NCBI GenBank assembly: GCA_016931225.1
Contig: JAFGFE010000040.1
Location: forward strand, 1-64,000
Length of the DNA: 64,000 nt
Origin: Candidatus Zymogenaceae bacterium
Lineage (GTDB): Bacteria; Desulfobacterota; Zymogenia; Zymogenales; Zymogenaceae
Reading direction: 5' to 3'
Below the pieces are notes generated by a model. It was given only the letters and a program-made list of their open reading frames with translations, was not told the DNA's origin and ran no database searches. Made by a program: the position numbers and the translations under genes. Every line of letters starts with the position of its first letter. The first letter of the stretch is position 1. Shown in pieces: positions 16,492 through 54,138 of this stretch.

Positions 16492-16520
16492 TTGACAATA
16501 CAGGGTCTGTAAAATATAAT
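16492..16520 (+). promoter_or_regulatory. Perfect consensus sigma-70 promoter for the selenoprotein gene
   Basis: TTGACA (16492-16497), 17-nt spacer, TATAAT (16515-16520): both hexamers and spacing are exact consensus. The predicted transcript start is about 20 nt before the chosen ATG at 16548, which has GAGGG upstream. Confidence 0.85.
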
Positions 16521-16547: not shown

Positions 16548-18215
16548 ATGAAGGGGACATTCACAAAAGATCTCATGATCATGGCTGCGTTGCTGCTCGT
16601 TCTGTCGGCCGTTACCTATTGCACACGGCCCCAGGATCCGGACGCTGCGTCGTTCACCATTATCTATTCCAACGATATGCTCGGTGAGGTCGAGCCCTGT
16701 GGGTGAAAAAGCAACCAGCTTGGCGGTCTTGCCAGGAAAGCAACGTACGTAAAGGGACTCGCCTCGGAGACGGACGACCTGCTCCTTCTGGATGCGGGAG
16801 ACATGCTCTTTCGCCAGTATGATCTGGGGCCTACCGTTGATGAGAGCTACGACCTGCAGGGAAGGCGTTTCATCGAATCCCACAACGCCATGGGCTGGAC
16901 TGCGTTCGCCCCCGGCGAGCGGGATTTCGCGCACGGTACCGATTACCTCCTGGAGATGAGGGATCTGGCGGAGTTCCCGTTTGTCTCGGCCAACATCGTG
17001 GATGCAGAAAGCGGAGAACTCCTCTTCGAGCCGTATATCGTCAAGAAGGTCGCCGGGTTTCGGGTCGGGATCATCGGGGTCATGGGCGAGGGCGTGGAAC
17101 TGACTCAAAGCCGCAGGGACGATCTGGGGATCGATCTGCTCGATCCGATGGAATCGATCAAGGACGCCCTGAAGGAGTTGGACGATACCGCGGATTTTAT
17201 CATCCTGCTGGCCCACACCGGAATGGACGACGCCCAGATCATCGCGGAGAAGATCGACGGTATCGACGTGATCATCGCGGCGCATCTTCCCCGGGGCAAT
17301 TACTACCAGCCGACGAAGATCAACCACACCCTCATCACCCAGGGCTTCGACCAGGGGAAATATCTCGTGCGCCTGGATGTACACATCCAGAGCCCAAAAC
17401 GCCCCTACGATCTCTTCGTGACCGGCAGCGGGGGGATCGGCTCCATCGAGTATCAGAACCTGAAGCTGAAGCTGGAACAGCTCGACGTGGTCGAGCAGGA
17501 CTTTCTGGCGAAGAAGGCCGAGGGGGAGGACGTCGATTACGGCCTGAAGCTCGTCGAGCTTGAACGGAAGAAGGTCGAGGAGATGATCAGTGAGATGGAA
17601 GCCGCAAGCGAGATGGATAACCCGAACTTCGTGACACCGACCCTCATTGCCCTGAGCGACGAGATTCCCGATGACGAGGCAGTCCTGGCGATCGGGAATA
17701 GATACATGAACAGGCTGATCACCATCAAGGAGAAAATAACGCCTGAAGACCCCGGAGACGACGATGCCGGCGCGGACGACGGCGGCACGGAATCCGACGA
17801 CGCCGGAACGTCCTCCGAATGGGACCCGGACGCCAATCCGACGTATGTCGGGATCAAGAAGTGCATCGCCTGTCATAAAACCATCTACACCTTCTGGCTG
17901 ACCACGAAACATTCCCGGGCCTACCCCACCCTGGAGGAGGAAAAGCGCCAGTACGAGCCGGACTGTATCAGCTGTCACACCACCGGGTATAAAAAATACG
18001 GCGGTTTCACCGACATAACGAAGGGTGAGAAATATCTGAACGTCCAGTGCGAGGCCTGCCACGGCCCGGGAAGCCTTCATGTGAGGAATCCGGAGACGAA
18101 AATGAAGGACCTCCATTCCGAGAAGGATTGTCTGAAATGTCACGACGAGGACAACGACGACGATTTCGACTACCAACGAGACCTCGAGATTATCCGATGT
18201 CCCGAACAGGATTGA
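16548..18215 (+). CDS. UshA-like selenoprotein fused to a tetrahaem cytochrome c domain (in-frame UGA)
   Basis: The frame runs 555 codons from ATG 16548 through one TGA at 16704-16706 to the stop at 18213-18215; a plain ORF finder starts only at 16803. Upstream codons give a signal peptide (hydrophobic 12-27, then CTRP), followed by 'IIYSNDMLGEVEPCG-U-KSNQLGGLARKATYV', so selenocysteine is residue 53 directly after CG. Homologues as I recall them have CGC here. The N-terminal half resembles metallophosphatase/5'-nucleotidase domains (DAGDMLF, GERDFAHG, LLAHTGMDD, AAHLPRG). After an acidic linker come four haem motifs: CIACH, CISCH, CEACH and CLKCH. The protein is periplasmic. A SECIS-like hairpin follows the UGA. 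Substrate is unknown. Confidence 0.85.
16704..16741 (+). promoter_or_regulatory. Candidate bacterial SECIS element after UGA
   Basis: UGA at 16704-16706, then a hairpin with stem CUUGGC (16719-16724) / GCCAGG (16731-16736), containing one U-G pair, and a six-nt loop GGUCUU. The loop begins with G about 18 nt after the UGA, inside the 16-37 nt range of bacterial SECIS rules. It contains the GGUCU core seen in the E. coli fdhF element. Confidence 0.7.
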
Positions 18216-18641: not shown

Positions 18642-20606
18642 ATGCCTGGCGGATTTTTGGGTAAATATCTTATTGTCGACCTCTCAAAAAAAAGTTTTGA
18701 AGTGGTTGAGCCGGGGGAGGACGTCTACAAAAACTTCCTTTCCGGATATGGACTGGGCGCCTATGTGCTGACCCAGAAACAGAAGGCGGGCATAGATCCG
18801 CTCTCACCCGATGCGTATCTTGGCTTCTGTTCCGGGCTGTTGACCGGAACCGGGGCCATGTTCAGCGGACGCTACATGTTGGTGGGCAAATCCCCCCTCA
18901 CCGGCGGCTGGGGAGACGCCAATTCCGGCGGCTATTTCTCTCTTGAAATAAAGCGGGCCGGATACGACGCCGTTTTCTTTACCGGCGCATCGAAGGACCC
19001 GGTCTGGGTGCACCTGGTTGACGACGAGGTCCAGTTCAACGACGCTCAGGATCTGTGGGGCAAGGACACGGTGGAAACCGAGGACATGATCCGGGATAAA
19101 CTAAATGATAAGAGGATCCAGATCGCCTGCATCGGTCAGTCCGGGGAAAAGGTCTCCCTGATCTCCGGTGTGGTGACCGACGCCGGCCGCATTGCGGCGC
19201 GATCCGGCCTGGGCGCGGTTATGGGCAGCAAGAAGCTCAAGGCGTTCTCCGCCAAGGGAACCATGAAGGTCCCGGTCGCCAAGCCCGATGAGTTCAAGGC
19301 CGTCAACAAGAAGTTCATGGACACCTACCGCAAGGAAAATCCCGTAGACAAGTTTCTGGTCATGGTGCTCAATTTCTTCAGCAAGATCATGGTGCGCACC
19401 GGCGTGTCGGTTCCGTCCGAGCCGCACACGGTCAGGGAGATCTTCAAGCAATTCGGCACCGCCGGCCTGACCGCCTTTTCCTCCGAAACCGGCGACAGCC
19501 CGGTGAAAAACTGGAGCGGCGTCGGATATACCGATTTTCCAATCGACACGAAAAGCATCAAATTGTCCGACAACGCGGTCGTCGCCCACGAAAAGAAGAA
19601 GTACCACTGTCAGTCCTGTCCCCTGGGGTGCGGAGGAGTCTTCGACCTGAAAACCGGCAAATACAAGGGCACCGAGGGACACAAACCCGAATACGAAACG
19701 CTGTGCGCCTTCGGCGCGCTGGTGCTCAATGACGACCTCGACACCATCATAGAAGTCAATGAACTGTGCAACCGCGCCGGTATCGACACCATCTCCACAG
19801 GCGGGGCCGTGGCGTTCGCCATCGAGTGCTTCGAAAACGACATCCTGGACGAAAAGGCCACCGGCGGCCTGAAGCTCTCCTGGGGCGATAAGGACACCAT
19901 CATAAAGCTCACCGAGATGATCATCAACCGGGAGGGCATCGGCGACATGCTGGCGGACGGCGTGAAAAAGGCGGCCGCGGAGCTGGGCGGAGACGCCTAC
20001 AAGTACGCGATCCATGCCGGCGGCCAGGAGCTCCCCATGCACGATTCCAAGCATGACGAGGGCTTCGCCATCGCATATCAGTGCGAACCCACCCCGGGAC
20101 GACATACCATCTCCAGCTATCTCTACGGATATGTCTGGAAGGTTAAAAACATCTTCCCGGCGGCCAAGAAAATGGTCAAGCGCGCCAAGGATAAGGACCT
20201 GAAAAAGGTCAACCTCTACACCGCCACGTCCTGGTACCTGCAGGTCCTCAACGGATGCGGACTGTGCGAATTCGGCCCCCTGACGGGACCGGTCCCCACT
20301 GTGGAATATCTCAACGCCGCCACCGGCTGGAACTTCTCCGCGGACGAATACCTGAAAATCGGCGAGAGGATTTTGAGCCTCAGGAAGGCCTTCAACGTCC
20401 GGGAGGGCATTATGGCCAAAGACTCGAAGCTTCATGCCCGGGGCATCGGCGATCCGCCCCTGACCAGTGGACCCCACAAGGGTCACACCGTAGACATAGA
20501 CAAGCTCGAAAAGGCGTTCTTCGACATCGTCGGATGGGACTACACCACCGGCGGCCCCACCGACGCCAAGAAAAAGGAGTTGGGACTGGACAAGCTGAAC
20601 CTGTAG
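18642..20606 (+). CDS. Tungsten-containing aldehyde:ferredoxin oxidoreductase (AOR family)
   Basis: 654 residues, the usual size is 600-650. The N-terminal domain ('GGFLGKYLIVDLS', 'TGAMFSGRYMLVGKSPLTGGWGDANSGG') is the AOR pterin-binding region. 'HCQSCPLGCGG' and a downstream 'GCGLCEFG' supply the four cysteines for the [4Fe-4S] cluster. These enzymes oxidise aldehydes to acids, or reduce acids, with ferredoxin, using a bis-tungstopterin centre in the cytoplasm. The exact substrate is not deducible. It follows the leader RNA and has a strong GAGGAGG site. A hairpin terminator follows the stop. It is monocistronic, which matches control by a cofactor-sensing leader. Confidence 0.92.
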   Translation: MPGGFLGKYLIVDLSKKSFEVVEPGEDVYKNFLSGYGLGAYVLTQKQKAGIDPLSPDAYLGFCSGLLTGTGAMFSGRYMLVGKSPLTGGWGDANSGGYFSLEIKRAGYDAVFFTGASKDPVWVHLVDDEVQFNDAQDLWGKDTVETEDMIRDKLNDKRIQIACIGQSGEKVSLISGVVTDAGRIAARSGLGAVMGSKKLKAFSAKGTMKVPVAKPDEFKAVNKKFMDTYRKENPVDKFLVMVLNFFSKIMVRTGVSVPSEPHTVREIFKQFGTAGLTAFSSETGDSPVKNWSGVGYTDFPIDTKSIKLSDNAVVAHEKKKYHCQSCPLGCGGVFDLKTGKYKGTEGHKPEYETLCAFGALVLNDDLDTIIEVNELCNRAGIDTISTGGAVAFAIECFENDILDEKATGGLKLSWGDKDTIIKLTEMIINREGIGDMLADGVKKAAAELGGDAYKYAIHAGGQELPMHDSKHDEGFAIAYQCEPTPGRHTISSYLYGYVWKVKNIFPAAKKMVKRAKDKDLKKVNLYTATSWYLQVLNGCGLCEFGPLTGPVPTVEYLNAATGWNFSADEYLKIGERILSLRKAFNVREGIMAKDSKLHARGIGDPPLTSGPHKGHTVDIDKLEKAFFDIVGWDYTTGGPTDAKKKELGLDKLNL

Positions 20607-20630
20607 ACGCAACCTCTTCTTTGCAGTGAA

Positions 20631-20664
20631 AAAACGGCCCGTGATACATCACGGGCCGTTTTTA
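20631..20664 (+). terminator. Intrinsic terminator after the AOR gene
   Basis: Long GC-rich stem AACGGCCCGTGAT / ATCACGGGCCGTT with a 4-nt loop, flanked by A-run and T-run, so it can work on both strands. Confidence 0.85.
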
Positions 20665-20724
20665 TATCCGCACAGAAAACCGACGCTCCCGCCATTAATT
20701 CCTACTTTCCTTGTAAAATATTAC

Positions 20725-20782
20725 TTGACAATCGGAGGGGAGTGCCATACCATTGAGTTAGGCATAGCTAACTCAATGGTAT
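20725..20782 (+). promoter_or_regulatory. Promoter with overlapping 36-bp inverted-repeat operator
   Basis: TTGACA (20725-20730), 17-nt spacer, TACCAT (20748-20753). The -10 region is inside a perfect inverted repeat: arms ATACCATTGAGTTAG (20747-20761) and CTAACTCAATGGTAT (20768-20782) with a 6-nt spacer. The permease start codon is 20 nt downstream. The arrangement is that of a repressor site blocking RNA polymerase; an alternative is an RNA hairpin masking the ribosome site. Confidence 0.8.
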
Positions 20783-20802
20783 CCCCCGCATGGGGATATA
20801 CA

Positions 20803-21948
20803 ATGGATATGTGGTACATCATTCTCGAGATACTTGGTGAAATCTGGTGGATTCTCACAGAATCCGCGCCCTTCGTTCTCTTCGGCACATTTTTGGCCGG
20901 GCTTTTATATATCTTCCTCAATCCCGAAATCATCTACCGAAGGCTCTCCGGAAACACATTTGGGTCGGTATTCGCCGCGTCTCTATTCGGCATTCCCCTG
21001 CCGCTCTGCTCATGCGGCGTTCTGCCGGTGGTGGTCTCCCTTTCCAAGCAGGGGGCCAACAGGGGCGCCGTCCTGTCGTTTCTGATCTCGACGCCGGAAT
21101 CGGGGGTGGACTCCATCGCCGTGACCTATGCCCTCATGGATCCCCTCATGACGATCATGAGGCCCCTCGCCGCGTTCGTGTCCGCAATCACCGCCGGCAT
21201 CCTGGGTGTCGTCTCCGGCGGGCCGGAAACACAGGAGGCGCCCGCACGGCCCGACATCACCTGCCGGGTGGACGCCTGCTGCAGTGGTGTGGACTGCCCC
21301 GCAGACCTGCACAAAAACCACCACTCGTTTTGGGAAAAGATGTGGGCGGCGATTAAATACGCCTTTGGTGAGCTGTTTGAAGATTTCGCTCCATGGTTCG
21401 TGATCGGGATTGTCGCCGCGGGAATCCTCACCTCCCTCACCCCTGCGGGCTTTTTGGAGCGTTATCTGGGCGGGGGCGTGCTGACCATGCTCATCATGCT
21501 GGCGATGGGCATCCCCGTATATATCTGCGCCACGGCCTCCACACCCCTGGCCGCGGCTCTGGTTCTTTCGGGGGTCAGTCCCGGTGCGGCGCTGGTGTTT
21601 CTTTTGGCGGGGCCCGCCACGAACGTCGCCTCTCTTTCGGTGGTGGCGGGAAACCTGGGCAGGCGCGCCGTGGTTATCTACGTCACCACCATATCGGTGG
21701 TGGCCGTCGTCATGGGGCTTTTTACAGATTATCTCTACACGACCCTGGGCGTCACCCCCCGGGCCTACGCCGGGGATTCGGCCGAATTCATCCCCGAGGC
21801 GGTCAAGGGTGTTCTGGCGGCGGCGATGATAATTCTCCTTGCCGTCGGCATCTATAGAAAGCTCGTATCCAAACGCTCATCCTGCGATGACACGTGCTCT
21901 CCTGACTCCGCATGTAAAATCGACACGGCACATCCCCACGGCCACTGA
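20803..21948 (+). CDS. Metal-efflux permease (UPF0718/SO_0444-like)
   Basis: 381 residues from ATG 20803, with about ten transmembrane segments. 'PLCSCGVLPVVVSL', 'STPESGVDSI', and 'GIPVYICATASTPLAAAL' followed by 'AGPATNVASL' are hallmark motifs of this permease family, which includes SO_0444 Cu/Zn efflux and ArsP-like exporters. A Cys-rich cytoplasmic insert ('VDACCSGVDC') and the Cys/His tail 'SSCDDTCSPDSACK...HPHGH' suggest metal binding. A longer frame upstream runs through the operator and lacks support. It is adjacent to and convergent with a ZIP transporter, so the pair may balance metal import and export. The cargo cannot be fixed from sequence. Confidence 0.85.
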   Translation: MDMWYIILEILGEIWWILTESAPFVLFGTFLAGLLYIFLNPEIIYRRLSGNTFGSVFAASLFGIPLPLCSCGVLPVVVSLSKQGANRGAVLSFLISTPESGVDSIAVTYALMDPLMTIMRPLAAFVSAITAGILGVVSGGPETQEAPARPDITCRVDACCSGVDCPADLHKNHHSFWEKMWAAIKYAFGELFEDFAPWFVIGIVAAGILTSLTPAGFLERYLGGGVLTMLIMLAMGIPVYICATASTPLAAALVLSGVSPGAALVFLLAGPATNVASLSVVAGNLGRRAVVIYVTTISVVAVVMGLFTDYLYTTLGVTPRAYAGDSAEFIPEAVKGVLAAAMIILLAVGIYRKLVSKRSSCDDTCSPDSACKIDTAHPHGH

Positions 21949-21970: not shown

Positions 21971-22729
21971 TCACATCAACCCCAGGGAGACAGCCATTAC
22001 CGCCATACCCCCCAGCACCCCAAGCAGGGCCACGTGTTCCTCACCGTGTCTGAAGGAAAGGGGCAAAAGCTCATCGAAGGAGATGAAGATCATGATCCCC
22101 CCCACTGCGGCAAGGGTCGCCGCCAGTACGTGATCATTCAGAAACGGAGCGAGGATCAGGTAGCCACATATCGCCCCCAGCGGCTCGAACAGACCGGACC
22201 CGAACGAATAGAGAAACGCTGTCCTCCTGTTCTTCGTGGCGTAATAGATCGGCATGGCGACGGCGATCCCCTCGGGTATGTTGTGAACGGCGATGGCGAT
22301 GGCCAGCGGTAGGCCCACGTTTATGTCCGCCAGGGTCGAAAACATTACGCCGATTCCCTCGGGAAAATTGTGTATGGCAAGCCCCATGGCGGTGAAGATG
22401 CCCGCGGACATGAGCTGTCGTTCATCTTCCGTCCCCTTCACCCGTTCCGCGAAGTAGTTATGGGGAATCAGGGCGTCTATGAGAAATATAAACAGGATGC
22501 CGGCAAACAGCCATACATTCCCGCGAATGAAACCGAGGGTCTCTATCGCCGTTCCAAGAAGCTCTACGAACGAAACATATATCATAACGCCCGCCGAAAA
22601 CCCGAGCATGATTGTGAGGTAGCGGTGCTTGAACTCCCTGATGAACAGGGAGATAACGCTGCCTATCCCGGTGGAAAGGCCGGCCAGCGTTGTAATAAGA
22701 AAAGCTGTCCAAAATTCTGTGTGATTCAT
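21971..22729 (-). CDS. zupT: ZIP-family metal transporter (ZupT-like)
   Basis: 252 residues, eight predicted transmembrane helices. The two signature motifs are 'LAIHNFPEGIG' (helix 4) and 'AVHNIPEGIAVA' (helix 5), with the metal-binding His and Glu of ZupT. 'SFDELLP' is in the C-terminal helix pair. It imports Zn2+, Fe2+ or related divalent metals across the inner membrane, probably energy-independently. The start at 22729 has an AGAGAGA site; an in-frame upstream start is weaker. It converges with the permease gene, the stops being 22 nt apart, with no terminator between them visible. Confidence 0.92.
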   Translation of the reverse strand: MNHTEFWTAFLITTLAGLSTGIGSVISLFIREFKHRYLTIMLGFSAGVMIYVSFVELLGTAIETLGFIRGNVWLFAGILFIFLIDALIPHNYFAERVKGTEDERQLMSAGIFTAMGLAIHNFPEGIGVMFSTLADINVGLPLAIAIAVHNIPEGIAVAMPIYYATKNRRTAFLYSFGSGLFEPLGAICGYLILAPFLNDHVLAATLAAVGGIMIFISFDELLPLSFRHGEEHVALLGVLGGMAVMAVSLGLM

Positions 22730-23071
22730 TGTATCTCTCTTTTTATGCGATAGTGTCATTACCTGATCGTGTCAGCACGGGTACCCTCCGCCTCAAAGAT
22801 GTGATACGCCGCGCGTTTACGCAGTATTGTAAATTATATCATCCCTCCCCTTCGGAGACAAAATTTTTGTATATCAGCTTAACATAAAACTTATTTGTGT
22901 TCGACGAACCATGATGATTTTAATGTATTGTATCTTGATGGTTTGGCTGTTTCCGCCACCAGACCCATTGTTCCGTGTCACACAATCTCAATTATCATAA
23001 AGAAAAAAGGACGCAGGATGATGTCCTGCGCCCTTCTGCTTCACGTCACGCTTTCCGAAAAGATATCCGGA
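22730..23071. other. Intergenic region with a terminator for the downstream minus-strand gene
   Basis: No gene visible in this 340-base AT-rich stretch. A strong minus-strand terminator is at 23003-23033; elsewhere I saw no repeat or motif. Confidence 0.5.
23003..23033 (-). terminator. Intrinsic terminator after the acyl-CoA ligase gene
   Basis: Read on the minus strand: GGGCGCAGGA, loop CATCA, TCCTGCGTCC, then TTTTTT. Confidence 0.85.
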
Positions 23072-31990: not shown

Positions 31991-33475
31991 ATGGTACATT
32001 CGACGAAAAACAACGGGGATGCGGTGGTGCTGATCAATCCACCGTCGGAGGTGCTCACGCCGGAAACGCGGTTCGTCCGCCCCCTCCTCAATTCCCTCCC
32101 CCAGCTGGGCATCGCCTCACTGGCGGCGACGCTCAAAAGAAACGGCCTCTCCGTGTCCATCCTCGACGCCCAGGCTTTGGGAATGTCGGTACGGGAGGTG
32201 GTCTCCTGGGCGACGGCGCACCGTCCCCGGGTGGTGGGCCTGACCGGATACACATCCACCGTCGACGCCGCATCGCTCATCGCGGAAGAAATCAAACAAC
32301 ACAACCCCGACGTCGCGACGGTCCTGGGGGGGCCACACGTGACCGCCGCCTGGGAGCGAACCCTCACACGTTTCCCCGCAATCGATTACGGATTTTTGGG
32401 CGAGGGGGAGTCCACGGCATTGGAGCTCTTCAGAACCCTCCTGTCCGGAAAGACGCCGAGGAGTGTGCCGGGGGCGGTCTACCGGGACGGACCCCGAATC
32501 ATATCGAACGAGCGCCCACCCCTCATCGACGACCTGGATGCGCTTCCGCCCCCGGCGGTGGATCTGTTCGAGAGATTTCCAAGCGCCTATCATCCGCCGA
32601 TACTTCATTCACCGATGGGGACGGCCGTCACCCTGGTCTCGAGCAGAGGGTGTCCCTACCGCTGCACCTTCTGCGACCGGGGGGTTTTCGGAGAACGATA
32701 TCGCTTTCACAGCATCGACTACATCATCGAACAGATCCGAAAGTTTAAAACCGATTACGACATCTCACATATCATCTTCTATGACGATAATTTCACCAGC
32801 AACCGGGCGCACCTCGAAGAATTGCTGGAGGCGATCATCAACCTCCCCTTCGATATCACCTTCAACTGTGACGCCAGGGTCGATCTGGTGGACCGAAAAC
32901 TCCTGGAGATAATGAAGCGCGCCGGGGCCTGGATGATCAACTACGGCATCGAGTCGGGAAGTCAGAAACTCCTGGACGATCTCTCAAAGAAGGTCTCGCT
33001 GGATCGGGCCAAGGAGGCGGTCCTTCTTACGCATGATGCCCAAATCATGGTCAAGGGCCTTTTCATGATCGGTGTTCCGGGGGAGACCGAACAGAGTCTT
33101 GAAGAAACCGGACGCCTTCTTGCAGAGCTCCCCTTTGATTTCGTCAATTTTTCAAAGTATACCCCCTACCCCGGCTGTGAAGACTACAAGACGATCAGGG
33201 AACACGGCGAGTTCGACGAAACCTGGGAGCTGATGAACGCCGTCAATATGGTGTTCGTGCCGAATACGATCACTAAAGAGGCGCTGGAGCGGGCTTCTTC
33301 CAACATGATGGCGGCGTTTTACAAAAATCCTCAGCGCTGGAAATCCTATACAAAAATCATCAAAAAAAATCCCCTGGATCGCATAAAACTCTTGAAACTG
33401 CTGCCAGGATATATAAAATACAAGGCCATGCGAAGAATCTCAAAGGGATCGTCGGAGAGTCCCTTTGATTTTTGA
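31991..33475 (+). CDS. B12-binding radical SAM protein
   Basis: 494 residues. The N-terminal cobalamin-binding-like Rossmann region ('LINPPSEV', 'PQLGIASLAATLKRNGLSVSILDAQ', 'VLGGPHVTA') precedes a radical SAM core with 'SRGCPYRCTFCDRG' (CxxxCxxC). 'GIESGSQKLLDDL' and 'MVKGLFMIGVPGETEQSLEET' are usual for the P-methylase/BchE-like group. Such proteins methylate or rearrange unactivated carbons, and the true reaction is unknown. It begins 1 nt after the alcohol dehydrogenase stop. I chose this ATG because a frame starting earlier overlaps the dehydrogenase. It lies just upstream of the methyltransferases, with which it may share B12. Confidence 0.85.
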   Translation: MVHSTKNNGDAVVLINPPSEVLTPETRFVRPLLNSLPQLGIASLAATLKRNGLSVSILDAQALGMSVREVVSWATAHRPRVVGLTGYTSTVDAASLIAEEIKQHNPDVATVLGGPHVTAAWERTLTRFPAIDYGFLGEGESTALELFRTLLSGKTPRSVPGAVYRDGPRIISNERPPLIDDLDALPPPAVDLFERFPSAYHPPILHSPMGTAVTLVSSRGCPYRCTFCDRGVFGERYRFHSIDYIIEQIRKFKTDYDISHIIFYDDNFTSNRAHLEELLEAIINLPFDITFNCDARVDLVDRKLLEIMKRAGAWMINYGIESGSQKLLDDLSKKVSLDRAKEAVLLTHDAQIMVKGLFMIGVPGETEQSLEETGRLLAELPFDFVNFSKYTPYPGCEDYKTIREHGEFDETWELMNAVNMVFVPNTITKEALERASSNMMAAFYKNPQRWKSYTKIIKKNPLDRIKLLKLLPGYIKYKAMRRISKGSSESPFDF

Positions 33476-33546
33476 CGACAGGGAGAAAAAGCAATGGTAT
33501 GTATCAACATAAAATGTGTAACCATCCCGCTAAACGGAGCATGCCC

Positions 33547-35010
33547 ATGAAAAGTTCAAAATTTCAGGTCTATGATGAAAAGGAAATCCAGGCGATCCAC
33601 AATACGTCACTGGAAATTCTGGAAAAAACCGGTGTGCGGGTGAATCTGAAAAAGCTCAGAGAGATTCTGGCGGACTGCGGCTGTTCGGTCGATGAATCTG
33701 AAAAGATAGTGAAGTTCCCGCCCAAGGTCGTGGAGGAACATATCAAGAAAGCCCCCCGGGAATTCACCCTGAGCGGCCCCGATCCGGAGAAGTCATGGGT
33801 GCTCAACCCGGAAGCGCAGATGTTCAACGGATTGAGCACCGCGATAAATATATATGATCTCGAAACCGGGGAGTATCGGCCCACCACGCTTCAGGATACC
33901 ATCGATCATATCATTATCATGGACTACCTGGATAATATCGTGGTGAACCAGATGGACATCTGGCCTACCGACATTCCGATGCAGACCATCACCACCGAAA
34001 CCATCCGGGGCTGGGCTCTCAACGCCACAAAGCCCTATTCCATGGGAGCCTACGGGGTTCTACCCAGTAAAGACATGACGGAGATGATGGCGCTGGTCAT
34101 GGGGGGACGGGAAAACCTGAAGAAAACCCACCCGATGCTGGGCATTGTCAGCATTCAGAGTCCCCTCTCCACGGCACAGATCCAGCTCGAGGGGATGCTG
34201 GTATTCGGCGAATACGGCCTGCCGGTGATTTTATCGCCCGAGGCGATGGCGGGAACCACGGCCCCGGTGACACTCGCGGGATTGATGGTCCAGCACAACG
34301 CGGAGGTCCTTGCGCACCTGGTCATGGCCCAGGCCGCCAACCCGGGATGTCCGGTGCTCTACGGGAGCGTCTCGACCATCGCGGAAATGCGCCGCGGCAC
34401 CTCGGCCCTGGGATCGGTGGAATGCGGGATGATCAGCGCCGGCGCCGCCCAGATGGCTCATTTCTACGACATCCCCTGCCGGGTGGTCGCCGGCGGCACC
34501 GAGAGCAAGACGATGGACCTCCAGTGCGGCGTCGAGCGGACTCGATCCATGCTGCTCGCGGCTCTTGCCGGCGGCAACTACATCACGTGTGTGGGAATGA
34601 TCGAATCCACCACCGCCACCGCCCAGGAGCTTTCGGTCGTCGACAACGAGATCATCGGAAGCGTCATGCGGGCGGTTCGGGGAATCGAGGTCACCGAGGA
34701 GAGCCTGGCGAAAGAGGTGATAGAGAGAATCGGCCCAGACGGCAACTACCTGATGGAAGACCACACCCAGAAGTTGTTTCGATCCGAGCACTTCATGACC
34801 AAGCTCGCCTCCCTGGAAAAACGGGATATCTGGGAGAAGGAGGGATCGAAAGAGATGGTCGATCGAGCCCGGGAGAGGACCAAGACCATCCTGAAGAAAC
34901 ACACCCCCAGGGACATAGACCCGAAGCTGAAAAAGGAGCTGGATGATTTCTGCAAGAAGGTTGAAGAGCGGGACCTCGACGTCTTCTATGCGGCGGAATG
35001 GGAGGGATAG
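33547..35010 (+). CDS. MttB-family (trimethylamine/betaine) methyltransferase, non-pyrrolysine
   Basis: 487 residues from ATG 33547, which has ACGGAG 7 nt upstream; an ATG at 33541 is too close to it. The MttB core 'ILSPEAMAGTTAPVTLAGLMVQHNAEVLA' (split by positions 34219-34305), 'LYGSVSTIAEMRRGTSALGSVE' and 'VAGGTESKTMD' identify the COG5598 family. Archaeal MttB uses pyrrolysine encoded by TAG; here there is no in-frame TAG, which points to the glycine-betaine/carnitine/proline-betaine branch (MtgB-type). It transfers a methyl to a corrinoid protein, encoded at 36655. Directly followed by a paralogue of equal length. Confidence 0.86.
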   Translation: MKSSKFQVYDEKEIQAIHNTSLEILEKTGVRVNLKKLREILADCGCSVDESEKIVKFPPKVVEEHIKKAPREFTLSGPDPEKSWVLNPEAQMFNGLSTAINIYDLETGEYRPTTLQDTIDHIIIMDYLDNIVVNQMDIWPTDIPMQTITTETIRGWALNATKPYSMGAYGVLPSKDMTEMMALVMGGRENLKKTHPMLGIVSIQSPLSTAQIQLEGMLVFGEYGLPVILSPEAMAGTTAPVTLAGLMVQHNAEVLAHLVMAQAANPGCPVLYGSVSTIAEMRRGTSALGSVECGMISAGAAQMAHFYDIPCRVVAGGTESKTMDLQCGVERTRSMLLAALAGGNYITCVGMIESTTATAQELSVVDNEIIGSVMRAVRGIEVTEESLAKEVIERIGPDGNYLMEDHTQKLFRSEHFMTKLASLEKRDIWEKEGSKEMVDRARERTKTILKKHTPRDIDPKLKKELDDFCKKVEERDLDVFYAAEWEG

Positions 35011-35094
35011 ATCGGACCGGAGTCGCAAATGCGGTCTGATCGCGGTGCGATACCTGATGGAGTCCGATATGAATTGCAAACAAAGGAAATACAC

Positions 35095-36558
35095 ATGAAT
35101 ATCCGAACGTATCGCCCCCTCACCGATGAGGACATACTCGCCGTTCACGACGCCAGCATGGAGATTCTCGAGACGGTGGGCGTGAAGGTGGAGCTGAAGA
35201 AGATACGCGGCATTCTCGCGGACATCGGCTGTGTGGTAAACGAGGGGACGAAGGTCGTCTCCTTTCCGCCGAAGGTCGTATCGGACCACGTAGGAAAGGC
35301 GCCCCGGGAATTTATCATCTCGGGCGCGGACCCACAGCTTCAGTGGACCATGAACCCCGAGGCCCGTATCTACGGAGGTCTCGGAACCGCGGTGAATATG
35401 TACGACCTCATCTCAGGTGAATATGTGGAATCCACCCGGCAACACAACCTCAACCACATGATTCTCATCGATGCATCCGAGAACATCCACACAAACCAGA
35501 CCGACATCACCCCCACCGACATCCCAATGCACACCGTGCATGTCAAGACCTTCAGGGACTGGTTTGTCAACTGCAGAAAGTCCTCGGGCATGGGCGCCTT
35601 CGGCGTCATGGCAACCACCGACATGATGGAGATGCTCTCCATCGCGGTTGGGGGCCGTGTGGCCATAGAAAAGAGGCATCCGTATCTTGTCATCGTCAGC
35701 ATTCAGAGCCCCCTCTCATCGGCACAGATGCAGCTTGAGGGATTGATGATCCTGGCGGAAACAGGGCAACCGGCGCTGCTTTCGCCCGAGTGTATGGCCG
35801 GCACCACGGCGCCCGTGACCCTGGCGGGGCTCATCGCCCAGCACAACGCCGAGGTCCTCTCGCACGTGGTCATGGCCCAGGCGGTGAATCCCGGTACCCC
35901 GGTCATGTACGGCACCGTCTCGACGATCTCGGAAATGCGTCGGGGGACCACCGCCCTGGGATCGGTGGAGACCGGCATCATCAGCGCCTCTCTGGCGCAG
36001 ATGGCCCACCATTACGACCTCCCCTGCCGGGGCGTGGCCGGGGCGACGGAATCGAAGACGATGGACGTCCAGTGCGGCGCGGAGCGAATGCGCTCGATGA
36101 CGCTTGCGGCCATGGGCGGCGTCAACCTGATAACCTGCGCCGGAACCCTGGAATCCACCACCGCCGGCGCCCACGAGCTTGTCCTTATCGATGATGAGCT
36201 CGCCTCGTCCATCGAGCGGGCCATAGGCGGTGTCACCGTGGACGGGACCCACATCGCCCTGGATGTGATCCAACGCGTCGGCCCGGACGGCAATTTTCTT
36301 ATGGAGCCGCACACCCAGCAGCACTTCCGAACGGAACACCTGATGACAAAACTCTCGAACCTGGACAAGAGAGACGTCTGGGAGCGGGAGGGAATGCGCG
36401 ACATGGCGATTCTGGCGAGAGAGAAGGCGAAAAAAATACTCGCCGACCACCAGCCCCGGGAACTGGACCCGAAGCTCATCTCCGAGCTGGATCGGTATGT
36501 GAAAACGGTCGAGGAACGCTCGGTTGATGATTTCTTCGCCGCCGAGTGGGAGGCGTAA
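35095..36558 (+). CDS. Second MttB-family corrinoid methyltransferase
   Basis: 487 residues, AAAGGAAAT site before ATG 35095. It is collinear with the previous gene, sharing 'SIQSPLSSAQMQLEG', 'SPECMAGTTAPVTLAGLIAQHNAEVLSHVVMAQA' (motif across 35785-35885) and 'YGTVSTISEMRRGTTALGSVETG'. No amber codon is present. The two paralogues are clearly related but diverged throughout, so they may serve different methylated amines. It is 85 nt downstream of the first and 97 nt upstream of the corrinoid protein gene. Confidence 0.86.
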   Translation: MNIRTYRPLTDEDILAVHDASMEILETVGVKVELKKIRGILADIGCVVNEGTKVVSFPPKVVSDHVGKAPREFIISGADPQLQWTMNPEARIYGGLGTAVNMYDLISGEYVESTRQHNLNHMILIDASENIHTNQTDITPTDIPMHTVHVKTFRDWFVNCRKSSGMGAFGVMATTDMMEMLSIAVGGRVAIEKRHPYLVIVSIQSPLSSAQMQLEGLMILAETGQPALLSPECMAGTTAPVTLAGLIAQHNAEVLSHVVMAQAVNPGTPVMYGTVSTISEMRRGTTALGSVETGIISASLAQMAHHYDLPCRGVAGATESKTMDVQCGAERMRSMTLAAMGGVNLITCAGTLESTTAGAHELVLIDDELASSIERAIGGVTVDGTHIALDVIQRVGPDGNFLMEPHTQQHFRTEHLMTKLSNLDKRDVWEREGMRDMAILAREKAKKILADHQPRELDPKLISELDRYVKTVEERSVDDFFAAEWEA

Positions 36559-36654
36559 TATCAATCGGATCGACTTTATGAAAAATCATGAGGTATATAT
36601 GCCGCGCGTTGAGCGTTAACAACCGACACAGGATATGTAAAGGAGGATATATAT

Positions 36655-37296
36655 ATGGCCGCACAGATACTGGACGAGCTGAAGGAAGCAATCGTCGAGC
36701 TGAACATCGATGAGACGGAAGAATTGACACAAAAGGCGCTGGACGAGGGCCTGAGCGCCGTCGCCATCCTGAACGACGGACTCCTTCCCGCCCTGGATGA
36801 AGTAGGCGTGCTGTTTCGGGAGGGGGACTATTTTCTGCCCGACGTGCTCATGTCCGTGAAGGCGTACGATAACTCCTTCAAGCTTCTCAAACCGATGCTC
36901 CAGGAGGGGGACTATCAGGCGAAGGGAACCGTCATGCTCGGTACGGTGGCAGGCGATATCCACGATATCGGAAAAAATATCGTGTCCGCACTGCTGCAGG
37001 GCAACGGCTTTGATATCATCGACCTGGGCGTCGACGTGCCGGCCCAGACCTTCCTTGACAAGGCCAAGGAGGCCAATCCTCACATCATCGGCATGTCCGC
37101 CATGCTGACCACCACTATGCCCGCCATGAAGGACGTCATCGACGTATTCACGGAAAACGGCGTGAGGGATCAATTCAAGTTCATTATCGGCGGCTCTCCC
37201 CTCAACCAGAAATTCGCCGACGAGATCGGCGCCGACGGGTACGGAGAAGACGCCCAGGCCGGGGTGGAGCTGGTCAAGCGACTCTTGGGCGTGTAA
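36655..37296 (+). CDS. Corrinoid (methylcobamide-carrying) protein, MtgC/MttC-like
   Basis: 213 residues. An N-terminal helical cap (about 1-88, with repeats like 'ALDEGLSAVAILNDGLLPALDEVG') precedes a B12-binding Rossmann domain with the DxHxxG motif, 'GDIHDIGKN' (Asp101, His103, Gly106), whose His is the lower axial cobalt ligand. It carries the methyl group from MttB-type proteins to an acceptor transferase not in this window. A strong AAAGGAGG site is 7 nt before the ATG. A terminator follows at 37363. Confidence 0.9.
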   Translation: MAAQILDELKEAIVELNIDETEELTQKALDEGLSAVAILNDGLLPALDEVGVLFREGDYFLPDVLMSVKAYDNSFKLLKPMLQEGDYQAKGTVMLGTVAGDIHDIGKNIVSALLQGNGFDIIDLGVDVPAQTFLDKAKEANPHIIGMSAMLTTTMPAMKDVIDVFTENGVRDQFKFIIGGSPLNQKFADEIGADGYGEDAQAGVELVKRLLGV

Positions 37297-49870: not shown

Positions 49871-50213
49871 CGCCGGCCGCTCGCCTCCCGCCGCCCATTC
49901 GGGGTTGATACGTAATTGATACGTAAACTTTATGATGAAATCACATGTCGGCGGCAATGTCAAGGGGAATAATGGGGGAGTGCTATTCACATAAAGGAGA
50001 AAATAATTACATTTAATAGACAGAGCAAGCTTTTTGAAAGATGATAAGAAAAAAATCTACTTCTTTTTTCGATCTTCTTCTGTTATATTACTTTCGGATA
50101 ACCTATTATATACTTATTATATTTATGTAATTCATTATGATTAACGATCATCTCGGATAGTAAAAGGACAACAAGACTCAAGAATTCTCTACTATGTATA
50201 ATTGAAGAACTAT

Positions 50214-51197
50214 ATGCCTGACCCAACAACTACCGATATTAAAAAACCTAGAGAGATCGTCGAAGAACTATGGCCACAAATACAAGGTGGTAATTATATT
50301 GTATGGATTGGCTCTGGTTTATCAGGTGATGAATATCCGAGTTGGGAAGACTCAATAAATATTATATGTCAATCATGTCAAATTCCCTTACTAAATAGAA
50401 ACGATGATGACAAAGAAAAATTGAAGAAAATAGATGCCTGTAGAAAAAAAAATGAAAATCTGTATCTAGAAGAGATCAAAAAGATTTTTGGGAAACATCC
50501 AGAGAAAATACCACCCGCCTATGTTTATCTATCAAAAATTCAATTTGTGGCATATATTACAACAAATTTCGACCCAATATTAAGCATAGTGGGCTTAGAT
50601 AGTAATAACACTATTCACTATTACCCTGACTTAGTAACTAGAATTGAAGGTAGCAGAAAACCAATTTATTATATCCATGGTTTAGTAAGAAGATTCAACA
50701 GAAATACTCGAGAAATTGAACTTAGACCAGAATCATTAGTTTTTTCTGAAACCGATTATCAAAAAGCATACTATGATGATTTGAGTACATTGAAGCATTT
50801 TCTATATAATATTCTTTTGAACTATCCAATTCTTTTTTTAGGGTACCGTCTAGAAGATGACTTAAAAGTAATATTTGGTCATATTCAAAGAATATTACAT
50901 ATTCTTAAAAGCAACAATCCAGACCGTGAAACATTTAAAAAACACATTTTATTACCTACTAGATATGATAATAGCAATGAAAAAAATGGGGAGCCAGAAC
51001 GTGATTATGAAGAAGAAAAAAGAGAAAATGATTTATATAAAGAAATCGATATTGAAGTAATAAGATATGATCCAGAAGACAAAAGCAAACACACCGAAAT
51101 CTATGAAATCTTAGAAATAATCTCTTTTCTGACATCTTCAAGATCAGATATTCAGAATAGCGAGGACTTACCAAGTGCCGAACGAGTTCTTCGATAG
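50214..51197 (+). CDS. SIR2-like (SIR2_2) NAD-hydrolase-type protein, putative defence effector
   Basis: 327 residues from ATG 50214; a TTG start at 50202 is also possible. SIR2-fold motifs in order: 'VWIGSGLSGDEYPSW' (glycine-rich NAD site, residues 30-44), 'YITTNFDPIL' (Asn118, Asp120), 'YYIHGLV' (catalytic-type His155), 'LVFSETDYQKAY' and 'LFLGYRLED'. In bacterial defence proteins this fold usually cleaves NAD+ to stop phage growth. The last 40 residues are charged and Glu/Lys-rich, and it overlaps the next gene by 23 nt. Ribosome site is weak. AT-rich codon use. Confidence 0.85.
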   Translation: MPDPTTTDIKKPREIVEELWPQIQGGNYIVWIGSGLSGDEYPSWEDSINIICQSCQIPLLNRNDDDKEKLKKIDACRKKNENLYLEEIKKIFGKHPEKIPPAYVYLSKIQFVAYITTNFDPILSIVGLDSNNTIHYYPDLVTRIEGSRKPIYYIHGLVRRFNRNTREIELRPESLVFSETDYQKAYYDDLSTLKHFLYNILLNYPILFLGYRLEDDLKVIFGHIQRILHILKSNNPDRETFKKHILLPTRYDNSNEKNGEPERDYEEEKRENDLYKEIDIEVIRYDPEDKSKHTEIYEILEIISFLTSSRSDIQNSEDLPSAERVLR

Positions 51198-54138
51198 AAT
51201 AGGAAAAATAGACAAAGCAATCGAAAAAGGCCCTATGGACTGCAATTTTTCTATTGATGTAGAACCTTATCTATTAGAAGACTCATCAATTTTCTACTTT
51301 TTTGAACATGAAGATTTACGTGAGAATTCCAACTGGCTTGAATTACTTGTCATAGTGGGTAGGTTTGATAGAGCACCTGACTCTATCTATGATGACAAAA
51401 ATAAAACAATATTTTGCCCAATATGGCCTGAATCCCAATACCTCGCCAAGATGGCATCAAGAGCTCCAGATATAGTAACTAAAATCATATTAGAGGTTGT
51501 TCCCGATACAAATAACTATAATGTTCATTTTGATTTTATTAGTTCCGCATTGGCATTACCTCCAGAGAATAAAAGAGAGTTAAGAAGTATTGCAAAAAAA
51601 GAATCAGGCTGGATAAAAGGACAGGGTTATTTTGGTTCATTCCTTGTATACAAATATCAAGAATTGCTAGATAAACTAATTAAATTTGAAGACTTTGAAA
51701 CCGCTCTAGAATTGGCAGATACTCTTCTGGAAGTACTTCCAGATCCAAAAAAAGATGAAAAACTAAAAAATGAAGATAAACTTATCTATCTAACCCCACA
51801 GGCACGCTTTGATTCTTTCCACTATGCAGAAATTATTAGAATAGCCTTTCCGGATCTTACTAAAAATATAGGGATTGAGATTATTAATATCTTATGTTCT
51901 AAATTGACAAAGTTTATCGAATTGTCTGAAACCAACGATGACGGGAATTTCTATAAAGAATTTACATACCATTGGAGACCAGCAATTGAAGATCATGCTC
52001 AAAATTCTAACTATGCTGACCTTGGTGATGTACTGGTTGACGCTGTAAGAGATATGTCAATCTTTCTTATAGATTACGATAGTACAAAATTTCAAGAGAT
52101 TGTATCCTACCTTGAAGATAAAAAGTCACAGATATTTGACCGTATTGTTCTATTCCTCCTGAATAAATATCCAGACTTACTACCCAACAGAGCAATTGAA
52201 GCAATAACAAATATTTCCCTTTTCGATGACATCGCATTTCTCCATGAGTATGCTCGCCTCCTGGATAATCAATTTGATAAACTCTCTCCTAAAACACAAA
52301 AAACTATTTTTAGTTGGATAGATAACCCAGACATCGATGAATTAAGAGACATTTTTAAAAGCCTCATGGGTAGAGAACCAGACGAAAAGGAGCTGATTAA
52401 ACAAAAAGAGAGGTGGCAACTAAAGAAGCTTGCATTAATTGAAAACCATTTAAAAGGAAAAAGAAAGTCAGAATACGAAAAATTAGTAGAAAAATATACA
52501 AAACCGGAGCACCCGGATTTTGCTGTTTACACTTCTATTGGTTCTTTTGGACCAAACAGCCCTATACCAACAGAGGAATTAGAGAAAATGACCATTGACG
52601 AAATGGTCGAAAAAATAAACAACTGGAATTGGCCGGGTGATTTTGGAGGTCCCTCACCTGAGGGATTAAGTCGGGTACTTTCAAATGTTGTAAAAAGTAA
52701 ACCGGAACAATTTGTAGAAGAAACGGAAAAGTTAAAGAATCTGGAAGATCCAACATGTATCAAGGGTATTATAATCGGTCTTAGAGATGCTTTAAAAGAA
52801 GATAGGACTTTTGAGTGGCCTAAACTTCTCAATTTTTGCCTGTGGGTAACTTCACAACCACGAGAGATGGAAATACCTGATAGAGGTAGCTTTGATAAAG
52901 ATCCCGATTGGTCGAGGTCTAGAAGATGGATAGCATCGCTCTTAGATGATGGATTTGATTCAAAAACAAATCCCATACCAATCGAACTACGAAACATGGT
53001 ATGGGGGTTACTCAAGTTACTTGCAGAAGACCCTTCCCCTTACAAGGAGGAAGAAAAAAATTATGATGAATCAGAAATAATGGACTTCATGACATTATCT
53101 ATCAATACGACTCGCGGAGTAGCAATGCACGCTGTGGTCCGCTTTGCATTATGGTTGAGAAGAGATTTTGAAAAAAGATCTAACTCAGAAAGCCTCTTAG
53201 CAAACGGCTTTAGTGAAATGTCCGGCGTCAAAGAAGTCCTTGAAAAACATCTCGATATACAACATGATCCTTCATATACAATTAGATCCGTGTATGGCCA
53301 ATGGTTTCCCTGGCTCGTTCTTTTAGATGAAGCTTGGGCAAAAGAAAATGCTCTAAAAATCTTCCCAGATGATGAGAAAGATAGGAAGTACCTACATGCC
53401 GCATGGGGAGCATATATTAAGTATTCAAGACCTTATAACAATATTTTTGTAATTCTCAAAAAACAATATTCTGATGCTGTTGACATTCTCCCTACTCAGG
53501 AGACTAAAGATGGAAGTTCCACCATATATAGAGATAGACTCGCAGAACATCTCGTGACGTATTATTGGAGAGGATTATTTGATTTAGAAGATTCCCTATT
53601 TAAAAATTTCTGGGAAAAGGCTGATAACTCATTAAGAGAACATACGATAGATTTTTTAGGACGAAATCTGAGCAATACTCCCGAAGATATTGAGAGCGAT
53701 ATCCTAGATCGTTTTAAAAATTTATGGACTTTTAGACTTTCTGTTGTAAATAATGCCGAAAAAAAAGAGAGCTTCATAAGTGAAATGTCTTGCTTCGGAT
53801 GGTGGTTTACTTCAAAGAAATTTGAAGATGCATGGGTTCTACCTAAGCTCTACGAATCACTCAAAATCTCAAGAAAGGTAGAATTCAATCGTGATGTGGT
53901 AAAAAAGCTTGCTGAAATCTCCGATGAATTTCCTGTTGATACTTTTCTATGCTTAAATGAGATAGCGAGAGGAGAAGTAAATCTCTGGGATATAAAGTCT
54001 TGGTATAAAGAAGCATATATTATTTTGGAAAATGCTCTAAATTGTAAAAATAAAGAAATAGTACAAGATGCTATTGATCTCACAAATTATCTTGGAAGCT
54101 TAGGCTTTATTGAAGAGTTTAGAAAATTGGTTGCGTGA
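51175..54138 (+). CDS. Large helical protein partner of the SIR2-like gene (possible DUF4020-like)
   Basis: 987 residues from GTG 51175, with ATG 51235 as an alternative (AAAGG site). No signal peptide, no transmembrane segment and no P-loop, so it is not a STAND ATPase. It appears almost entirely alpha-helical and repeat-like, with Trp/Leu-rich segments such as 'FETALELADTLLEVLP', 'VVRFALWLRRDFEKRS' and 'YLHAAWGAYIKYSRPYNN'. The last resembles, from memory, the C-terminal DUF4020 region of SIR2-linked defence proteins. Coupled translation with the SIR2 gene indicates a complex: this protein may sense phage or restrain the effector. Function is otherwise unrecognised. Confidence 0.75.
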   Translation: MPNEFFDRIGKIDKAIEKGPMDCNFSIDVEPYLLEDSSIFYFFEHEDLRENSNWLELLVIVGRFDRAPDSIYDDKNKTIFCPIWPESQYLAKMASRAPDIVTKIILEVVPDTNNYNVHFDFISSALALPPENKRELRSIAKKESGWIKGQGYFGSFLVYKYQELLDKLIKFEDFETALELADTLLEVLPDPKKDEKLKNEDKLIYLTPQARFDSFHYAEIIRIAFPDLTKNIGIEIINILCSKLTKFIELSETNDDGNFYKEFTYHWRPAIEDHAQNSNYADLGDVLVDAVRDMSIFLIDYDSTKFQEIVSYLEDKKSQIFDRIVLFLLNKYPDLLPNRAIEAITNISLFDDIAFLHEYARLLDNQFDKLSPKTQKTIFSWIDNPDIDELRDIFKSLMGREPDEKELIKQKERWQLKKLALIENHLKGKRKSEYEKLVEKYTKPEHPDFAVYTSIGSFGPNSPIPTEELEKMTIDEMVEKINNWNWPGDFGGPSPEGLSRVLSNVVKSKPEQFVEETEKLKNLEDPTCIKGIIIGLRDALKEDRTFEWPKLLNFCLWVTSQPREMEIPDRGSFDKDPDWSRSRRWIASLLDDGFDSKTNPIPIELRNMVWGLLKLLAEDPSPYKEEEKNYDESEIMDFMTLSINTTRGVAMHAVVRFALWLRRDFEKRSNSESLLANGFSEMSGVKEVLEKHLDIQHDPSYTIRSVYGQWFPWLVLLDEAWAKENALKIFPDDEKDRKYLHAAWGAYIKYSRPYNNIFVILKKQYSDAVDILPTQETKDGSSTIYRDRLAEHLVTYYWRGLFDLEDSLFKNFWEKADNSLREHTIDFLGRNLSNTPEDIESDILDRFKNLWTFRLSVVNNAEKKESFISEMSCFGWWFTSKKFEDAWVLPKLYESLKISRKVEFNRDVVKKLAEISDEFPVDTFLCLNEIARGEVNLWDIKSWYKEAYIILENALNCKNKEIVQDAIDLTNYLGSLGFIEEFRKLVA

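Follow-up and report, generated by a model that had tools for sequence, protein, structure and literature searches.

The window, a 64,000-nucleotide stretch of contig JAFGFE010000040.1 from a Candidatus Zymogenaceae genome, carries a 555-codon reading frame that is continuous apart from one internal stop, a TGA at codon 53, and that closes on a terminal TGA (Table 1). The first-pass annotation, made from the letters of the sequence, had described this frame as a probable selenoprotein gene with a consensus promoter, a signal peptide, a conserved motif around the UGA and a tetrahaem domain, and each of these sequence features was recovered. The element TTGACA-17-TATAAT agrees with the sigma-70-type consensus at all 12 positions and could act as the promoter; a hydrophobic segment at residues 8–25 is predicted to direct export; the motif reads EPCG-U-KSNQLGGLAR; and four CxxCH motifs lie in the C-terminal part. 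Cys25 (16620–16622), which closes the export segment, is conserved across the four closest sequences, and the residue preceding it is Tyr or His, so that the site does not fit a standard lipobox. Conventional ORF calling starts at the ATG at 16803 and loses the N-terminal 85 residues, as had been noted; the further claim that automated annotation would mis-start the gene holds for ORF calling, yet NCBI-style annotation could recognize the family through its profile, NF041198. When both strands of the window were scanned, 53 TGA triplets were found to precede a SECIS-like hairpin, and the one at 16704 alone also had an open-frame context, defined as a start at least 25 codons upstream and at least 150 open codons downstream.

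Table 1. Features at and around the UGA-containing gene, in window coordinates
Feature	Position	Strand	Basis or remarks
Candidate sigma-70-type promoter, TTGACA-17-TATAAT	16492–16520	+	Pattern match to consensus, 12/12
CDS, predicted UshA-like tetrahaem selenoprotein	16548–18215	+	555 codons, UGA 53 read as Sec; NF041198, 446.7 bits
Predicted N-terminal hydrophobic export segment, residues 8–25	16569–16622	+	Sequence; alignment; helix 8–25 in structural model
UshA/5'-nucleotidase N-terminal fold with degraded catalytic site, about residues 34–290	16647–17417	+	Profile against PDB; AlphaFold and Foldseek; lost ligands
PCGU motif, predicted redox site, residues 50–53	16695–16706	+	Alignments
UGA codon, predicted selenocysteine (Sec53)	16704–16706	+	UGA/Cys interchange among homologues; Sec machinery
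Bacterial SECIS hairpin, apical loop GGUCUU at 16725–16730	16719–16736	+	Pattern; shuffles; Sec versus Cys copies; window scan
Predicted helical linker, about residues 300–397	17445–17738	+	AlphaFold secondary structure
Haem c motif 1, CIACH	17862–17876	+	Sequence; cytochrome c554 Pfam PF13435
Haem c motif 2, CISCH	17964–17978	+	Sequence
Haem c motif 3, CEACH	18048–18062	+	Sequence
Haem c motif 4, CLKCH	18129–18143	+	Sequence
Moco/tungsten riboswitch, RF01055	18382–18492	+	37 bits, just above gathering threshold; ahead of the aldehyde ferredoxin oxidoreductase gene
Aldehyde ferredoxin oxidoreductase (AOR)	18642–20606		Downstream of the selenoprotein gene
SO_0444 family Cu/Zn efflux transporter	20626–21948	+	385.8 bits, cut-off 300
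Zinc transporter ZupT	21971–22759	-	302.5 bits

Upstream of the gene lies a divergent glycosyltransferase. The AOR neighbour recurs in two Zymogenaceae relatives (L076 and L077), which could be plain synteny; a Moco riboswitch was not detected at the gathering threshold at either of these two loci.

The read-through protein belongs, virtually beyond doubt, to the NCBIfam family NF041198 (‘UshA-like (seleno)protein’, UshA_like_PCGU). It scores well above the family cut-off of 275 bits, the match covers residues 18–543 and profile positions 7–519 (near full length), and the CxU motif of the family is present as PCGU; when the N-terminus is omitted from the ORF the score falls by 101.8 bits. The architecture over nearly the whole length, the PCGU motif and the four haems are those of NF041198, and the window protein shows no essential difference from it. 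A second family, NF049981 (UshA-like (seleno)protein family 2), is related in its N-terminal Sec region and is matched at 44 bits against a cut-off of 140.

The selenoprotein family is already known, and the window gene is an additional, well-supported member and a useful annotation. In the Global Ocean Sampling selenoproteome it appears as ‘COG0737, UshA-like, CxU’, with 76 Sec and 92 Cys sequences (PMC2398784); a UshA-like CxU selenoprotein family is likewise present in a table of PMC9312934 and, under NF041198, in PMC13188914. Neither a function nor an experiment for the family was found in the portions of these three papers that were accessible. The family of PMC2398784 has the same name and CxU motif as the window protein, but in the accessible text it is grouped by COG only, with no discussion of a haem domain or of lost residues.

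Homologues were then compared at the codon itself. Of 297 genomes in the phylum, 57 encode an NF041198 member above the cut-off, and in almost all of these the gene has a single internal TGA; where the codon was read directly in the motif, it was UGA at 46 of the 49 distinct homologous loci. The window protein shares 46–47% identity with its nearest relatives, and the closest named ones are Candidatus Zymogenaceae. About 30 distinct homologues, several of which are full-length tetrahaem proteins, have Cys in the Sec column; loci with Cys include L051, L070 and L092–L098, as well as more than 20 further named ones, with Candidatus Electronema, other Desulfobulbaceae, Nitrospirae and Myxococcales among them. 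The possibility raised at first pass that homologues might carry neither Cys nor Sec at this site is therefore not what the alignments give. The gene selA was found in 49 of 51 genomes tested; G043 is without it, and its tetrahaem member (L070) has Cys, which is consistent with the Sec reading. A sequencing error at 16704, also envisaged in the first-pass annotation, is for practical purposes ruled out, since the UGA recurs in this motif in independent genomes of the family (L024, L025, L026 and L078). A chance UGA and a pseudogene were likewise rejected, the UGA being conserved across independent genomes.

In bacteria, SelB together with Sec-tRNA reads a SECIS hairpin and inserts selenocysteine instead of terminating. 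The candidate hairpin in the window (CUUGGC-GGUCUU-GCCAGG) begins 15 nucleotides past the U of the UGA, at the distance and with the GGUCU loop that had been claimed for it, and nearly all Sec copies share a common hairpin spanning the GGLAR codons. Of 46 Sec copies, 41 use GGT for the second Gly of this motif, whereas GGT makes up 16% of the other Gly codons in these genes. Set against Cys copies, Sec copies more often have GGT at this codon (34/39 versus 10/30) and a stem of at least five pairs (34/39 versus 3/30), with median folding energies of -8.2 and -3.4 kcal/mol, respectively; the P values for Sec versus Cys hairpins are below 1e-5, uncorrected for relatedness and shared ancestry. Shuffling that preserves the protein sequence gave p ≤0.05 for the hairpins of 24 among the 46 Sec copies; none of the three non-Sec copies reached that level. 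The window copy itself is moderately better than synonymous shuffles of its own codons (p = 0.083), so that the SECIS assignment draws on the family comparison more than on this one predicted hairpin. The idea that the GGLAR codons alone account for the hairpin was discarded, since the protein motif is common to the Cys copies and the hairpin is not. For the same reason, a shared motif in which the hairpin decays where the UGA is absent, UGA and Cys copies make a clean natural test of a SECIS element, and the patterns of codon use and pairing indicate that synonymous sites are under selection to keep the hairpin. A hairpin just downstream of the UGA with a G in a small apical loop, the bacterial SECIS criterion of PMC1088965, is what lies at this site.

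The genome, which is 99% complete, encodes the whole set of selenocysteine genes that the first-pass annotation had proposed to look for: selA (599 bits), selB (371 bits), tRNA-Sec (selC, 77 bits) and selD (357 bits), all above curated cut-offs. Its selD has one in-frame TGA of its own, at the catalytic position (KAAG-U-AAK), which is a second sign that UGA is decoded as Sec in this organism. This selD, a selenoprotein gene as well, is located on L016 (C33 of the same genome), from about position 2400 downwards on the minus strand.

UGA 53 is thus almost certainly read as selenocysteine in a predicted exported haem protein, and the first-pass call of a probable selenoprotein is supported by the sel genes, by Sec or Cys at the site and by the UGA shared with relatives. 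Termination at codon 53, leaving either a pseudogene or a shorter protein from 16803, is what the standard code would give, and an ORF is indeed open from that ATG; it is nevertheless highly improbable, given the conserved UGA, the Sec/Cys interchange, the SECIS element under synonymous-site selection and the Sec machinery in the genome, and the short form would also be without the export signal required for haem attachment.

The N-terminal domain has the fold of Escherichia coli UshA, the 5'-nucleotidase/UDP-sugar hydrolase, which gave the best Foldseek matches (E about 1e-22). For ligand mapping, ushA of E. coli K-12 was used as the yardstick, with His117/Asp120 taken by us to be its catalytic dyad and Asp41, His43, Asp84, Asn116, His217, His252 and Gln254 its two-metal site. 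Across 51 family members the equivalent of His117 is kept once and that of Asp120 never, and among the metal ligands His43 is kept in 1/51 and Asn116 in 2/51. In the window copy the dyad is replaced by Arg/Ala; His43, Asn116 and Gln254 are lost, and the equivalents of Asp41, Asp84, His217 and His252 are kept, so that with four of seven ligands in place the protein may still have a residual metal site. All catalytic and metal residues are present in the genome's two canonical paralogues, except that His replaces Gln254. The Pfam 5'-nucleotidase C-terminal domain gave no match in the window protein, where a cytochrome c554 domain is found instead. With the catalytic dyad and the C-terminal domain of an active UshA-type nucleotidase wanting and its two-metal site incomplete in these comparisons, the window protein differs from UshA in these losses and in its additional Cys-Gly-Sec and tetrahaem domain.

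Judged from residue identities, ordinary phosphoesterase activity has probably been lost: across the family, the His/Asp pair of the catalytic site and the majority of the UshA metal ligands are gone. The family name is misleading in this respect. The description of the protein at first pass as a periplasmic phosphoesterase is consequently unsupported; nor is the protein a new kind of selenoprotein, belonging as it does to a catalogued CxU family. Were Sec to stand in for a metal ligand or nucleophile, the protein could still be an active 5'-nucleotidase or SoxB-like hydrolase; its kinship of fold and sequence with UshA, CD73 and SoxB would fit this, as would the four ligands still present in the window copy. 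Such a hydrolase appears unlikely in view of the replaced dyad, the family-wide loss of ligands and the missing C-terminal domain, and the protein scores only 97 bits against the SoxB model TIGR04486 (cut-off 550) and 70 bits against the UshA model (cut-off 600). With the UshA-type catalytic site largely gone, Sec53 is likelier to have a redox than a hydrolytic role.

The C-terminal tetrahaem module matches cytochrome c554 by sequence (PDB 1bvb; Pfam PF13435). Only this module is shared with cytochrome c554; in the window protein it is fused to the UshA-like selenoprotein domain, and its four CxxCH motifs are conserved among full-length members. At other loci, cytochromes with 9 and with 16 haems are neighbours of tetrahaem members, those with 16 haems having a NapC/NrfH-like N-terminus; this arrangement fits electron transfer. 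On the explanation we favour, SelB with Sec-tRNA would recognize the hairpin and insert Sec at UGA 53 in place of termination, and the protein would be exported and its haems then attached. Cys51-Gly-Sec53, at the edge of the decayed metallophosphoesterase active site, would form a thiol/selenol redox centre that trades electrons with the tetrahaem domain, making the protein a periplasmic oxidoreductase or electron relay and not a nucleotidase. Taken whole, an exported NF041198 selenoprotein with SECIS-dependent Sec and a redox function on a decayed hydrolase scaffold is the likely account; the particular step from Cys-Sec to haem is somewhat better than an even proposition. In the AlphaFold model, residues 52–55 and most of the haem domain fall below 50 pLDDT, and Sec cannot be placed relative to the haems. 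One tetrahaem member (L031:4-1548) speaks against the redox reading, since neither Cys nor Sec is left in it (SGR, codon CGA) and yet it keeps its haems; it has no SECIS hairpin, and its genome has selA.

A different role for Sec53, as a metal or metalloid ligand, is suggested by four paralogues (L078, L134, L135 and L136) that cluster with ACR3 arsenite efflux pumps (444, 458, 376 and 466 bits, all above cut-off). The Cys-Gly-Sec pair would then bind a soft element such as As or Hg and either pass it on to an efflux system or protect that system. All four clusters contain thioredoxin, three contain ArsR and three a CcdA/DsbD-type protein or ArsG; the SO_0444 family transporter stands two genes downstream of the window gene; and Sec has been proposed as a metal ligand for other selenoproteins (PMC13188914). 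Against this, the window copy lies outside any arsenic cluster, ACR3 occurs in just 4 of 95 contexts, some of which were examined owing to a nearby ArsG/CcdA-like match, and the haem domain suggests electron transfer. Chance would give about 0.3–0.6 ACR3 neighbours per 95 contexts, a comparison to be read with the contexts having been partly picked knowing nearby matches, and for that reason the link of the paralogues to arsenite efflux is a lead only. Among the 12 genomes with ArsG above cut-off, ArsG is near a listed UshA-like gene in G051 only. On this balance a ligand role is rather doubtful, and redox chemistry remains the preferred reading of Sec53.

A broader and still more speculative proposal, which we consider improbable, would make the NF041198 superfamily a dead metallophosphoesterase repurposed for redox work, with Cys-Gly-Sec handling periplasmic arsenic or another metalloid and two electron feeds: the tetrahaem paralogues would be fed by their haems, beside multihaem quinol-linked cytochromes, and the paralogues in ACR3 clusters by thioredoxin and CcdA. 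If true, such selenoproteins would form a class not yet described, acting in metalloid redox chemistry or as metalloid chaperones. In any case, both kinds of neighbourhood, arsenite-efflux and multihaem, offer testable leads to function. Of the paralogues in the four ACR3 clusters, two have UGA and two do not, and the clusters have ArsR, an ArsP-type permease, ArsG or CcdA in varying combinations. An arsenic operon was sought around the window gene and none was found in its neighbourhood.

Short haem-free UshA-like paralogues lie close to selA at eight loci (L137–L142, L144 and L148), some of which also have formate dehydrogenase-like genes nearby. The window's own genome has a second UshA-like protein of this short, haem-free form (L072:1360-2313, on C44), with PCAU in place of PCGU and a SECIS-like hairpin; it scores 208 bits against NF041198, below the cut-off. 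Elsewhere in the window, two tandem MttB-family methyltransferases are followed by a B12-binding corrinoid protein (33472–37296, plus strand), in frames without amber codons. Further along the same strand, at 50202–54138, a SIR2-domain protein precedes a protein of 987 residues that matches Dsr1 in PADLOC (185 bits); the pair may be an anti-phage defence system of Dsr1-like type split over two genes.
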